From the NCBI RefSeq assembly GCF_000238595.1, contig NZ_AGTS01000078.1, positions 62,001 through 126,000 on the forward strand: a DNA stretch of 64,000 nt, given 5' to 3'. The notes under the pieces are model-generated. The model saw only the letters and a list, made by a program, of their open reading frames with translations, was not told the origin of the DNA and did not search any database. The position numbers and the translations under genes are program-made. The DNA is from Acidovorax sp. NO-1. Its GTDB lineage: Bacteria > Pseudomonadota > Gammaproteobacteria > Burkholderiales > Burkholderiaceae_C. Position 1 is the stretch's first letter, and each line of letters opens with the position of its first letter. Positions 9,962 through 55,696 of the stretch are shown here, in pieces.

Positions 9962-11200
9962 TCACGGGGCTGTGGGCGCCCCCGCCTCAAACCAGCGCCC
10001 GATCAGCGCCCGCTCCGCATCAGTGATCTGCGTGGAATTGTTCATCGGCATCAGCTTTTGCACCACCACCTGCTGGTAGATGGCCTGGGCGTGTTGCTTG
10101 ACCAGCTCCGGCGAGTCGAGCCGCAGGTTCTTCATCTGCACCGCCTCGCCGTGGCACAGGTAGCAGCGCTGCTCCAGCACCGCTTGCACTGATTTATAGT
10201 CATTTTGGCCACCAGCGCTTACCCCACCTGCGTCAGCAGCTCCTGAAACAGTAGCATTCGCATTGGCTGGTGGTACTGGCCGCATCCACACGATGGCGCC
10301 GACGATGACAGCCACGCCCACCAGCGCATAGGGCAGCGGGTTGCCATTGCGGCCCAGCTTGTAGCCGTGGCGCATCACAAAGAACTGGCGGATGGCGGCG
10401 CCGGCAAACATCATGAGGATGAGCACCAGCCAGTTTTGCGGGTGGCTCCAGGTAAAGCTGTAGTGGTTGCTGAGCATGGCAAACAGCACGGGCAGCGTGA
10501 AGTAGGTGTTGTGCACGCTGCGCTGTTTGCCGCGTTTGCCGTGGATGGGGTCCACGGGCTGGCCGGCCTTGATCTGCGCCACCACGGTGCGCTGGCCGGG
10601 GATGATCCAGAAGAACACGTTGGCGCTCATGGCGGTGGCGATCATGGCGCCCACCAGCAAGAAGGCTGCACGGCCTGCAAACCAGTGGCAGGCCAGCCAT
10701 GAGGCCACGCACACCAGCACGAACACCAGCGCGCCGACGATGGCATCGCCGTTCTTCTTTTGGCCGAAGATGCGGCAGATGGCGTCGTACAGCAGCCAGA
10801 ACACGACGAAGAACGCGAGCGCCACCACGATGGCGGTGGCTGGTGCCCAGTCCATTTTCGACTTGTCGATGAGGTAGGTGCTGGCGCTGTACAGGTACGA
10901 CACGGTGAACAGCGCAAAGCCGCTGATCCAGGTGCTGTAACTTTCCCAGAAGAACCAGTGCAGGTGTTTGGGCAACTGCGGTGGCGACACGGCGAACTTG
11001 ACGGGGTGGTAGAACCCGCCGCCGTGCACGGCCCAGAGCTCGCCGCTGACGCCCTGTTTTTTCAGGTCTTCGTCCTCTGGCGGCGTGAGGCTGCTATCCA
11101 GAAAGACGAAGTAAAACGACGAGCCGATCCAGGCGATGGCGGTGATGACGTGGACCCAGCGCAACAGCAGGTTGGCCCAGTCGAGAAAGTAGCTTTCCAT
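9962..11200 (-). CDS. puuD: urate hydroxylase PuuD (membrane urate oxidase with cytochrome c domain)
   Basis: 412 residues. The N-terminal part has eight or so membrane helices typical of the Urate_ox_N domain, including HVITAIAWIGSSFYFVFLD near the start. The C-terminus is a cytochrome c domain with CYLCH at 346-350 for covalent heme attachment. PuuD oxidises urate to 5-hydroxyisourate and passes electrons to the respiratory chain. Its product is the substrate of UraH, encoded nearby. Residues about 315-336, between the last helix and the heme domain, are encoded by a degenerate copy of the dispersed repeat. A half-copy of the GntR operator palindrome lies about 135 bases upstream of the start. 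Confidence 0.93.
   Translation of the reverse strand: MESYFLDWANLLLRWVHVITAIAWIGSSFYFVFLDSSLTPPEDEDLKKQGVSGELWAVHGGGFYHPVKFAVSPPQLPKHLHWFFWESYSTWISGFALFTVSYLYSASTYLIDKSKMDWAPATAIVVALAFFVVFWLLYDAICRIFGQKKNGDAIVGALVFVLVCVASWLACHWFAGRAAFLLVGAMIATAMSANVFFWIIPGQRTVVAQIKAGQPVDPIHGKRGKQRSVHNTYFTLPVLFAMLSNHYSFTWSHPQNWLVLILMMFAGAAIRQFFVMRHGYKLGRNGNPLPYALVGVAVIVGAIVWMRPVPPANANATVSGAADAGGVSAGGQNDYKSVQAVLEQRCYLCHGEAVQMKNLRLDSPELVKQHAQAIYQQVVVQKLMPMNNSTQITDAERALIGRWFEAGAPTAP
10194..10258. repeat. dispersed AGCGCTTAT repeat, copy 2, inside puuD
   Basis: ATTTATAGTCATTTTGGCC, ACCAGCGCTTAC, a spacer, and GCAGCTCCTGAAACAGTAG follow the family layout (compare 15069-15135). It is in frame and encodes an Ala/Gly/Ser-rich linker between membrane and heme domains. 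Confidence 0.6.
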
Positions 11201-18222: not shown

Positions 18223-18333
18223 CGTGCATGTATTGAAGGGCGGAGGCCGGGGCGACATCCCGGCTCCCGCCCGCAAAACAGGCAAACCATCAAAAAATAG
18301 CTGCTGCCACCCACAAAAAACACACGCTGACAA

Positions 18334-30310: not shown

Positions 30311-30647
30311 AAAAAGCGGGCAAAGCGCGTGTGGCCTGGCAAGCAGAAGCAGAAGCAGAAGCAGAAGCAGAAGCAGAAGCAGAAGCAGAAGCAGATGCAG
30401 AAGCAGATGCAGATGCAGATGCAGATGAAGGCCGAATCTCGGCCCTCGCATGCCGTGGCAACGCACGCCAGCCTGCCTATCGTTACGGCCGCTGCGTCAG
30501 CGTTCAGCCAGCAGTCGCGCCTTTGCGTTGTCAGCACCCGCCGACAACTGCGACGCTACGCTCTGCGCTGTACCGAATGCGGGAACTCAGGCTGCAGCCT
30601 GGGCTCCCTTGCTGTTTACCAACCGACCGCAGAGAAAGACCCGCCTG
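30311..30647. other. divergent intergenic region, lipid kinase / PAP2
   Basis: 337 bases. Besides the hexanucleotide array it holds about 220 bases of ordinary sequence with no palindrome or recognisable promoter of high score. The PAP2 start at 30648 is preceded by GAGAAAGA. Confidence 0.5.
30343..30426. repeat. hexanucleotide tandem repeat (GCAGAA/GCAGAT) x14
   Basis: Fourteen uninterrupted 6-base units: eight GCAGAA, one GCAGAT, one GCAGAA, then four GCAGAT. It lies in the divergent region of the lipid kinase and PAP2 genes, 32 bases upstream of the kinase ATG. Such arrays are prone to slippage and could tune transcription or leader length. Confidence 0.95.
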
Positions 30648-32269: not shown

Positions 32270-32295
32270 CCGTTCGGGCTGAGCTTGTCGAAGCC
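32270..32295. repeat. REP-like 25-bp repeat (CGTTCGGGCTGAGCTTGTCG type)
   Basis: The same unit occurs inverted at 33051-33080 and 33091-33120, and as an inverted pair at 51527-51586. This is a common kind of intergenic repeat in proteobacteria. Confidence 0.7.
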
Positions 32296-32332
32296 GGGGC
32301 TCGGGTGCTGGATAAGCCGCATGCCTGGTTTG

Positions 32333-33015
32333 AGGGCGGGAGCCGGGGTGTGCGCCCGGCGGCGCAGTAACTTTCTCTTGTCTCGCCAAGAGAAAGTCAC
32401 CAAAGAGAAGGCGACCCTACTGTGCGTGTCCCTTCGCTGCGCTACGGGCAACCTGCGATGCTCGGTCAGGGGGTGCGCCGCAGAACTCACTGCGCGCTGC
32501 GCGCTCCGTTCAGACAACTGCGGCGAGTCAGTGCACGAAGTGCGTGTGTCCTTCGGCACACGCACGCACCCCCTGCCCTGCGCTTCTCGGCACGCACAGA
32601 AGGGAACCCGCAACCGGACAACCCCACGGGCCATTGCTGCGCTCGGCCTGGATGGCGCAGGCGCAGGCGCTGCGCGCCGCGACCGCGAGGCCGAGCGCAG
32701 CAATGGCCCGTGTGGACTGTTCGGCTGTTCGGCTGTCCCACCCCTGCTGGCTGCGCCTGCGGCGGGGCGGTTGCGGGGTGAGCATGCGCGTCGGAGCGCG
32801 CATGCCTCGTAATCTGACTCGCCGTGGTTGTCCGAGCGGCGCGCGCCAGCGCAAAGCGAGTTCCACGGCGCACCCCGCAACCGCCCCGACGCAGGTTTGC
32901 CCCTTCGCACAGCGAAGGGGTCGCAGACTGGGGGTCGCCTTTTCTTTGGTGACTTTCTTTTGGCGAAGCGAAAGAAAGTTACTCGCATGCCGGGCGACTC
33001 CCGGCCTCCGCCCTC
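32333..33015. repeat. structured 0.68-kb repeat element, copy 1 (terminal inverted repeats and internal hairpins)
   Basis: The left arm (32333-32417, AGGGCGGGAGCC to GGCGACCC) and right arm (32932-33015) are imperfect inverted repeats of about 85 bp. Each arm contains its own hairpin (GTAACTTTCTCTTG/CAAGAGAAAGTCAC at 32367-32400). Internal inverted repeats: 32467-32477/32565-32575, 32540-32548/32557-32565, 32628-32649/32688-32709 (22 bp perfect), 32764-32780/32871-32887 (17 bp perfect), 32782-32790/32797-32805, 32900-32908/32912-32920. Open frames inside are Arg/Pro/Cys-rich and look spurious. No transposase. Copy 2 is at 41348-42003. It fills most of the 973-base gap between urtD and urtE. 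Confidence 0.85.
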
Positions 33016-33050
33016 AACACGGGCATGCTTTCTCAACCAGCACGCCCCAG

Positions 33051-33120
33051 CTTCGACAAGCTCAGCCAGAACGGATGGGGAGCGCCCAGGCTTCGACAGG
33101 CTCAGCCCGAACGGATGGGG
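33051..33120. repeat. two direct copies of the REP-like repeat
   Basis: CTTCGACAAGCTCAGCC...GGATGGGG at 33051-33080 and CTTCGACAGGCTCAGCCC..GGATGGGG at 33091-33120, 40 bases apart, inverted relative to the copy at 32270. Together they bracket structured element copy 1. Confidence 0.75.
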
Positions 33121-41347: not shown

Positions 41348-42003
41348 AGGGCGGGAGCCGGGGTGTGCGCCCGGCGGCGCAGTAACTTTCTCTTGCCTCG
41401 CCAAGAGAAAGTCACCAAAAAGAAGGCGACCCTACACGCTGCGTCCCTTCGCTTCGCTGCGGGCAACCTGCGGTGCTCGGTTTTGGCGGGATCTCGCTAA
41501 ACTCGTGCCGCTTCGCGTCACTCAAACAGACGCGAGCCCTGATCCGCCAAAACCTCCGCTCCTCGGCGCATCCTGAAGGGAACCCGGGGATCGGACATCC
41601 ACCCGGGCCATTGCTTCGCTGCGCTGCGCTCGGCCCCAAACGCGCGGGCGCAAGCGCCTCGCTGCGCAGACTGGGCCGAGCGAAGCAATGGCCCGTGTGG
41701 CTGTTCGGATGTTCGGCTGTCCCACCCCTGCTGGCTGCGCCTGCGGCGGGGCGGTTGCGGGGTGAGCATGCGCGTCGAAGCGCGCATGCCTCGTTGTCTA
41801 GCTCGCCGGGGCTGATCGAACGTAGCGCCAACGGCGCGCAGTGAGTTCCACGGCGCACCCCGCAAGCGCCCCGACGCAGGTTTGCCCCAACGCCGCAAGG
41901 CGTTGGGGTCGCAGACTGGGGGTCGCCTTTTCTTTGGTGACTTTCTTTTGGCGAAGCAAAAGAAAGTTACTCGCACGCCGGGCGACTCCCGGCCTCCGCC
42001 CTC
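41348..42003. repeat. structured 0.66-kb repeat element, copy 2
   Basis: Terminal arms at 41348-41432 and 41920-42003 match copy 1 closely. Internal hairpins lie at the same relative places but with altered sequence: 41479-41489/41544-41554 (GGTTTTGGCGG/CCGCCAAAACC where copy 1 has CAGGGGGTGCG/CGCACCCCCTG), 41605-41620/41679-41694, 41748-41764/41856-41872 (one mismatch), 41766-41774/41781-41789, and 41885-41894/41899-41908 (CCCCAACGCC/GGCGTTGGGG where copy 1 has CCCCTTCGC/GCGAAGGGG). It fills the 798-base gap between the iron-sulfur subunit gene and the MurA-like gene. No coding signal. Confidence 0.85.
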
Positions 42004-51526: not shown

Positions 51527-51586
51527 CCGTTCGGGCTGAGCGTGCCGAAGCCTCGCGCGGCGCTTCGACAAGCTCAGCGTGAACGG
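51527..51586. repeat. inverted pair of REP-like repeats (hairpin)
   Basis: CCGTTCGGGCTGAGCGTGCC..(51527-51551) and GCTTCGACAAGCTCAGCGTG..(51562-51586) pair at 21 of 25 positions around a 10-base loop. It has the same unit type as the copies flanking structured element 1. It could act as a transcription terminator or insulator between the divergent operons. Confidence 0.75.
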
Positions 51587-51614
51587 ATCTGTGTTTTTTG
51601 AATGCAGACAGGCA

Positions 51615-51771
51615 TGAGACGAAACGGAACTGACTCCTCGCGTTCGACACGCTTTGTGGCCGCGCGAGTCGATGACACCAGCATTGAGTAAAACGATATG
51701 GAACTGACCCCTCGCGTTCGGCCGCCCCTGCGGTCGCGCGAGCCATTGACCCCAGCATTGAGTGAAACGAC
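51615..51771 (+). repeat. tandem duplication of the ureA leader (two upstream units, 70 and 74 bp)
   Basis: TGAG at 51615, 51685 and 51759 marks three units. Each continues as (A/G)AAACG..GGAACTGACTCCTCGCG; units 1 and 2 end in GCGCGAG..CCAGCAT. Unit 3 is the real ureA start (ATG 51772). Unit 2 keeps an ATG (51698) encoding the same MELTPR opening; unit 1 has lost the ATG by a four-base deletion. Confidence 0.85.
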
Positions 51772-52700: not shown

Positions 52701-54446
<1,746 letters not shown>

Positions 54447-55022: not shown

Positions 55023-55696
55023 TCCAAGCCTCCAAACTCATCCCCCAAGGCAAGGGCCTGGCCCCCATACTGGTCAAGCGCGCCACCACCATCGAGCTGG
55101 ACTGGGACGTGCGCCAGAAAAGCCGCTTTGCCGCCACCGACTCCACCGGGCGCGAGCTGGGCATCTTCCTGCCGCGCGGCACGCTGGTGCGTGGCGGTGA
55201 TGTGCTGGTGGCCGAAGACGGCTCCATGGTGCGCGTGATCGCCGCCCCACAGCCCGTGCTGGTCATCACGCACTGCAAGAACCACGGCACCGCGTTTGAC
55301 CTGACCCGCGCCGCCTACCACCTGGGCAACCGCCATGTGCCCATCGAGCTGCAGCCCGACCACCTCAAGATCGAGCCCGACCACGTGCTGGCAGACATGC
55401 TGCGCGCCATGCACCTCATCGTGAACGAGCAAAACCTGCCATTTGAACCCGAAGGCGGTGCCTATGCTGCGGGGCATGGCGGCGGGCACCACCATGGGGG
55501 TCACGATCACGATCACGATCACGATCACGATCACGATCACGAGCATAGTCACGCGCACGATCATGGCCAAGACCACGGGCACGCTCACACAAAGGTACCG
55601 GCTGCGGCCACGCCCCCAGCCCAAGGCCGCACCGTGTCCATCCCCGTGGTGGCCCAAGGGCACGTGCACGGCCCGAACTGCAACCACGACCACTGA
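55019..55696 (+). CDS. ureE: urease nickel metallochaperone UreE
   Basis: 225 residues, longer than usual (about 150-160) because of a His-rich tail. N-terminal peptide-binding domain about 1-75; nickel-binding domain about 80-150 with GNRHVPIEL (conserved His). From about residue 155 the tail is dominated by His, with six His-Asp pairs encoded by a perfect hexanucleotide repeat, and ends GPNCNHDH. Such tails store or deliver nickel. Overlaps the GNAT stop. Confidence 0.95.
55502..55537 (+). repeat. (CACGAT)x6 coding repeat in ureE
   Basis: Six perfect 6-base units give His-Asp pairs, followed by CACGAG. Slippage would add or remove two residues without a frameshift. Confidence 0.95.

Follow-up and report, generated by a model that had tools for sequence, protein, structure and literature searches.

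A dispersed, non-coding 0.7-kb repeat of Burkholderiales that keeps its stems paired while its sequence changes

Bacterial intergenic repeats are mostly short palindromes that are explained by transposition. REP/BIME repeats, as characterized in the available text of PMC2817692, PMC3733652, and PMC8266576, are intergenic, palindromic, and dispersed sequences of 20-40 bp that occur in more than 100 copies. IS200/IS605-type transposons, to the extent covered by the available part of PMC6006769, have hairpin ends and a tie to replication, with IS608 and ISDra2 targeting the lagging-strand template. Integron attC sites (PMC2727003, likewise in its available part) are recognized by structure without a conserved sequence, and one strand serves as the substrate. 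BRE, a repeat of Comamonadaceae and Alcaligenaceae, Acidovorax included, is described in the available portion of PMC3110155 as usually intergenic, about 90 bp long, and in some cases tandem. Finally, large structured RNAs in Rfam show elaborate covarying folds.

Here we describe a gene-free element of 0.7 kb that keeps its fold across many genera, starting from two copies in a window of 64,000 nucleotides from Acidovorax sp. NO-1 (contig NZ_AGTS01000078.1, positions 62,001 to 126,000). These copies are members of an old, dispersed, non-coding, intergenic repeat family of Burkholderiales. The element resembles REP/BIME repeats in being intergenic, palindromic, and dispersed but, judged against the available descriptions, differs in its length, its multi-branched fold, and its 6-9 copies per complete genome. 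It shares hairpin ends and a tie to replication (for the element, seen in Acidovorax only) with IS200/IS605-type transposons but carries no transposase gene inside, as judged from its tested open reading frames (ORFs) and Pfam, consists of inverted pairs of large folds, and occupies sites that are all (9/9) common to two strains. Compared to attC sites, it is far larger and dispersed in intergenic gaps; from BRE, as described, it differs in size and layout, and no Rfam family reaches its gathering score on the element. Single-strand transposons, attC sites, and REP repeats are thus the closest parallels, and none of them, as far as the available text of PMC6006769, PMC2727003, PMC2817692, and PMC8266576 describes them, fits the tests made here. 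The literature searched, in which coverage of subscription papers is thin and which excludes preprints, yielded neither a description of the element nor an occurrence of six literal end and flank sequences. A link to RAYT (TnpA-REP) was considered and rejected; PF01797 is found in 34 of 36 Acidovorax genomes, most of which have one to three such Y1 genes, and element ends were found beside none of the 30 loci examined.

Both copies are present where the original prediction had placed them (Table 1). Copy 1 has on either side an ABC ATPase gene of a branched-chain amino acid transporter (Pfam hits), which we take to be livG-like and livF-like, while copy 2 lies beside an Fe-S (Fer2/Fer2_2) gene and an EPSP_synthase gene (Pfam hits), the latter presumably murA-like. 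The predicted terminal inverted repeats of about 85 bp were recovered as 65-nt ungapped arms with 83% and 86% complementarity in copies 1 and 2, respectively, plus an additional 29-nt arm pair in copy 1 (83% complementary); across its full length, copy 1 is 73% identical to its own reverse complement, and its inverted repeats extend into the flanking REP-like repeats. The predicted internal stems (P-half S2, Q-half H1, and the central hairpin in Table 1) are present and paired in both copies. Folding energies were extreme for copy 1 as RNA (z = -23.1) and for copy 2 as DNA (z = -23.2), with none of 20 dinucleotide shuffles equally stable in either case. Coding and mobile origins were also considered: none of four ORFs of the element matched Pfam, no match was found in a phage collection, and only three plasmid records matched, covering 6-34% of the query. 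Searches against Rfam at a permissive threshold returned only microRNA families, below their gathering scores.

The Acidovorax element, which is 624-726 bp long in 69 full-length sequences (69 of 77 kept), consists of two homologous but different halves, P (left in the window) and Q (right), which are arranged head to head and separated by a central hairpin. From the end inward, each half comprises a terminal hairpin with a CGGC loop, hairpin H0 (arms GTAACTTTC..GAAAGTCAC), hairpin H1, and stem S2, with domain D on top; domain D is composed of hairpin H2, which has an inner hairpin H2i inside, and hairpin H3, and includes the unpaired motifs AACTC, GACA, GAGTCAG, and ACGA. An H-type pseudoknot at the terminus was rejected, as the simple hairpin with the CGGC loop explains the identical covarying bases. 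Within the window, a covariance model of the 104-nt domain D (R1) detects the domain in each half of copy 1 and, in copy 2, in the Q half; the corresponding P half is of a variant type that has no significant R1 match. REP-like repeats lie within 130 bp of at least one side in 45 of 62 Acidovorax elements (3 of 65 being omitted for short flanks) and are constant in orientation, i.e., inverted 66 times and in the opposite orientation never.

Table 1. Coordinates, in the window, of the two element copies, their parts, and associated repeats
Feature	Position	Strand	Remarks
Copy 1, full element	32333..33015	+	P half left, Q half right
Copy 2, full element	41348..42003	+	P half left, Q half right
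Terminal hairpin TGCGCC-CGGC-GGCGCA, P end	32351..32366	.	Stem covaries, 124/130 parsable Acidovorax ends
Terminal hairpin H0, P end	32367..32400	.	Arms 32367-32380 and 32387-32400
P-half closing stem	32415..32604	.	Arms 32415-32428 and 32591-32604; encloses H1 (32430-32448) and S2
P-half stem S2 (CAGGGGGTGCG stem of the original prediction)	32464..32578	.	Arms 32464-32477 and 32565-32578
Domain D, P half of copy 1	32469..32572	+	Model R1: H2 with H2i, then H3
Central hairpin	32622..32715	.	Arms 32622-32658 and 32679-32715
Q-half stem S2	32756..32895	.	Arms 32756-32783 and 32868-32895
Domain D, Q half of copy 1	32775..32877	-	Model R1
Q-half hairpin H1 (CCCCTTCGC stem of the original prediction)	32901..32919	.	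Inverted repeat
Terminal hairpin H0, Q end	32949..32982	.	Inverted repeat
Domain D, Q half of copy 2	41759..41862	-	Model R1
REP-like repeat (CCGTTCGGGCTGAGCTTGTCGAAGC), outermost arm	32270..32300	+	Beside Acidovorax elements always in this orientation
Two inverted copies of CCGTTCGGGCTGAGCTTGTCGAAGC-type REP-like repeat, other side of copy 1	33043..33120	-	
Collapsed remnant, 35 bp	18238..18272	.	Two outermost ends, interior missing

The genome that includes the window (161 contigs) has nine copies of the element, one of which was matched across 605 of 683 positions, and nine complete Acidovorax genomes have 6-9 copies each when end-only matches are excluded. Within the genus, matches were found in 33 of 36 genomes, the source genome included; among 24 genomes of other families, 5 showed weak matches (best E 1e-17). 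Within the family, R1 hits were obtained for 99 of 250 genomes, representing 61 of 141 genera, and the spread is therefore patchy; across the order, R1 matched in 11 of 300 genomes, 6 of which belong to three other families, one of these families being represented by a single weak match (E 9e-5). An exact 21-mer of domain D occurs in Acidovorax, Paracidovorax, Simplicispira, Comamonas, Variovorax, and Rhodoferax as well as in Rubrivivax, Aquincola, Rhizobacter, Ideonella, and Aquabacterium, with several of the carriers being metagenome bins. Outside Acidovorax, the elements have different outer ends, some occur as single units, and the two halves may both look P-like, as is the case in one genome (G248). 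Two units of one family (f20; L175 and L344) are bounded by inverted CTAGTGTAGTGCTTC-like ends that are unlike the Acidovorax ends, such that the same core may travel with differing ends. One genome (G015) also has direct-repeat series of domain D with a spacing of about 476 bp (e.g., contig C81, 127973-129026, and contig C11, 774269-774850), which occur beside inverted pairs.

The original prediction had proposed that folding is under selection, to be examined with a covariance model, and covariation analyses within and outside the genus support this. Sequences of domain D were compared in four alignments. A1 was aligned without structure, with halves located by motif; 19 of 130 halves could not be parsed, and of 37 diverse halves picked, 36 were used and one cut half was omitted. 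A2 to A4 were gathered by a model that scores pairs and hence lean towards pairing; A4 takes in 49 of 81 loci, none of them named Acidovorax or Paracidovorax. Standard pairs made up 97.3% of cells in A1, where 16 of 24 pairs were changed on both sides, 98.5% in other genera (18/24), 96.9% in distant family members and other families (20/24), and 95.1% in A4 (22/24). The covariation score in A1 was 0.398 as compared to 0.168 in shuffles, and slid versions paired in 11-50%. In each of the four alignments, none of 500 shuffles reached the observed share of pairs, number of doubly changed pairs, number of doubly changed cells, or covariation score; a weaker signal came from the count of further pair types, which 500, 102, 39, and 1 of 500 shuffles reached in A1 to A4, respectively. 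The terminal hairpin covaries as well, with a mean longest complement of 5.11 versus 4.21 (maximum 4.45) in shuffles, 6 of 130 ends being unparsed. When 65 full elements (77 unique sequences minus 8 with aberrant lengths and 4 that exceeded 96% identity) were aligned with MAFFT, RNAalifold gave a poor consensus because unrelated stems fail to align, and the domain alignment was used instead; a first regular expression for the half core, which missed 44 of 130 halves, was not used.

While the minimum-energy fold of the whole strand is a long hairpin between P and Q, arms of individual hairpins paired with their own partners at 0.92-0.98 and with swapped partners at 0.47-0.84 (65 elements for H0, 50 for the others); H0, H2i, and H3 arms were located by best-hairpin search, which raises their own-pairing values, and H2 arms by position. 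P and Q arms, by contrast, resemble each other within one element no better than across different elements, which argues that local hairpins are selected and the long P-Q hairpin is not, and the idea that the two long arms co-evolve was thus not borne out. The unit is the half-element, whose hairpins, above all those of domain D, keep pairing while letters change.

The compensatory changes reported between the two copies of the window stand in part; the stems are paired in both, but two copies alone are insufficient to prove point-by-point compensation because blocks have been replaced at one and the same site between strains, some of them resembling another copy. Among eight orthologous copy pairs from two strains of the species, which are 73.7-100% identical (five at ≥94%), three contain replaced segments of 60-140 nt that are 95-97% identical to another copy, a pattern expected of gene conversion; for the two largest replaced segments (about 260-360 nt), the best donor among the copies compared reached only 73-89%. 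This visible block replacement, together with stems that are almost purely Watson-Crick, could suggest that no selection is needed to maintain pairing, with arm-to-arm copying (via template switching or quasi-palindrome correction) and gene conversion together being sufficient, and hairpin-dependent copying had indeed been raised as a possible source of the pairing. However, H0 retains an A.C mismatch and domain D an internal loop that is mostly mismatched, and unpaired motifs are conserved across genera and families, such that we consider this origin of the pairing very improbable.

Sites are common to strains and species, and blocks of copies get replaced. The second strain of the species has an element at all nine sites of the source genome, the copy at one of them being shortened (one site was checked by its left flank only), and the flanks of shared sites are 89-100% identical between the two strains. 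Across species, 8 of the 11 genomes in which both flanks are visible carry the element at site 1; one of these copies is shortened, and the element is reversed in three species (G007, G023, and G015). The other three genomes lack the element at site 1; two seem to retain end-like debris and none shows a clean joint. Site 2 is occupied in 5 of 8 genomes and has an insertion-sequence-like insert in two (G024 and G006); the two inserts (L108 and L109) are different and both sit at the loop of terminal hairpin H0, and in G024 the interior of the element is gone. The 35-bp remnant in the window is identical in the second strain, the only one of nine stretches compared that has it, and its composition suggests that the interior was lost through a deletion that joined short repeats present in either end.

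Terminal inverted repeats, dispersed copies, presence and absence at orthologous sites, and rarity between divergent genes are features that a miniature inverted-repeat transposable element would show, in which case the copies would be dead or dormant and the hairpins would be ends needed by a transposase only. Pairing constraint extends to the interior and is not confined to the ends, however, and the domains counted are mostly intact, with 0.88-1.0 of positions paired in A1 (36 sequences) and a median of 0.96 in A4 (74 sequences, one below 0.8). Moreover, the ends have no further copy in the source genome (all 18 end matches in its 161 contigs fall within the nine copies), no target duplication was seen at the sites compared between species, and all nine sites are common to the two strains. 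We therefore regard dormant transposable elements as an improbable explanation.

Orientation was evaluated in the nine complete Acidovorax genomes, with dnaA located in each genome, exact genome lengths used, and the terminus set as the point opposite dnaA. Of 66 elements, 60 have their P-to-Q direction opposed to the replication fork, and such elements form the majority in each of the nine genomes, with no exception in five genomes (9, 7, 8, 7, and 8 elements) and one or two in the other four. Four end-only matches (<200 nt), which were excluded from this count because only one end is shown, all point the other way and would give 60 of 70. Since species share sites, elements were also grouped by their flanks (49 of the 66 elements, seven genomes), although looser grouping might merge some sites; of the resulting 20 sites, 17 are wholly against the fork, 1 is with it, and 2 are mixed with a majority against, for a site-level bias of p = 1.4e-4 with mixed sites left out. 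The bias was measured in Acidovorax only; for other genera, dnaA was not found at the start of 3 of 4 records checked.

Elements favor gene 3' ends and avoid promoter-to-promoter gaps. Contexts in the complete genomes were convergent, tandem, and divergent in 26, 13, and 0 of 39 callable cases (1 weak case of 40 omitted), and in another set they were 18, 22, and 2 of 42 (19 weak cases and 4 short flanks of 65 omitted). Convergent genes give no direction of transcription between them. With 48 flanking genes on the leading and 30 on the lagging strand (i.e., 62% leading-strand, 48/78) and most contexts convergent, transcription fails to explain the direction bias. Among single units of other genera between confidently called tandem genes, two point with the genes and four against them (n=6; gene caller trained on Acidovorax).

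The preference for gene 3' ends, along with a multi-branched fold, unpaired motifs that are conserved across families, and an extreme RNA folding energy, is what would be expected if the fold under selection were that of RNA, i.e., a structured non-coding RNA family or mRNA 3'-end structures transcribed from one or both strands. Arguing against RNA, the direction tracks replication far better than transcription, the few single units between tandem genes have no uniform direction with respect to the genes, the two halves run in opposite directions such that any transcript would carry one of them reversed, and an Rfam match is absent. Base pairs themselves did not separate RNA from DNA. In the four alignments of domain D, GT and AC mismatches numbered 31 and 33, respectively, among 3,798 cells with 3,636 Watson-Crick pairs, while A4 alone had 20 GT versus 11 AC; in Acidovorax halves (17 of 130 unparsed), wobbles are bound to position, with AC and GT counts of 116 and 16 in H0, 17 and 0 in H2, 8 and 39 in H3, and 6 and 4 in H2i. 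An argument for DNA from this G-U asymmetry was dropped, as the RNase P RNA control (30 genomes of the family) flips with the rule for choosing pairs, giving 56 GT and 19 AC when G-U was counted as paired and 10 GT and 13 AC when pairs were chosen on Watson-Crick alone. C-UNCG-R loops and conserved unpaired motifs in the element resemble RNA; the loops do not discriminate, because C-GNA-G, the complement of C-UNCG-R, is a stable loop in DNA too. Because the unpaired motifs are conserved, however, we consider selection on an RNA fold to be almost as likely as selection on a DNA fold.

Selection on the fold, combined with an orientation linked to replication rather than transcription, suggests DNA that folds while single-stranded at the fork, and we tentatively favor, at somewhat less than even odds, an explanation in which such folded DNA is read by a candidate protein. 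Counting against it are the six full elements and four end-only matches that oppose the majority direction, the reversal at site 1 in three species, the confinement of all end matches in the source genome to its nine copies, and the lack of a clean empty site or target duplication at the sites compared between species. Under this explanation, the fold would form on the lagging-strand template, Q half first, and would be bound by a hypothetical protein; the spread of the element was probably passive, with such a protein mobilizing it by single-strand transposition in the manner of IS200/IS605, and its present upkeep would depend on selection on the fold, aided by recombination between copies. 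None of the 30 Y1 transposase loci that might have supplied such a protein had element ends. An unlikely variant is that the copies are replication-oriented structural DNA, a large single-strand folded signal placed at gene 3' ends and recognized by shape at the fork, with a role in marking or protecting the replication or segregation of the chromosome; the stems could then vary freely provided that pairing is preserved.

If the selected fold is indeed that of DNA, then a dispersed element is selected for DNA shape, and strong covariation does not necessarily indicate RNA; if the fold is that of RNA, then a large multi-copy RNA family is absent from Rfam. With either form, natural stem variants are numerous enough that searching for the reading protein is practical.

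The window also includes several other repeats and matches. A second dispersed repeat (AAGCGCTAGAGGCCAAAA type, ≤4 mismatches) occurs at 10203, 15077, 32208, 38440, 45538, and 56405, and adjoins copy 1 once. Further REP-like repeats are located at 51527-51592 and 51619-51766, beside a 74-bp direct repeat (two copies, 78% alike). An AAGCAG/ATGCAG hexamer repeat is found at 30329-30442, where long open frames overlap, and CACGAT repeats, one frame of which would encode His-Asp, at 55490-55543. Finally, the minus strand at 52895-53178 has a strong Rfam match (86.9 bits) to the 5' ureB sRNA, a family known from Helicobacter, here in a betaproteobacterial host.
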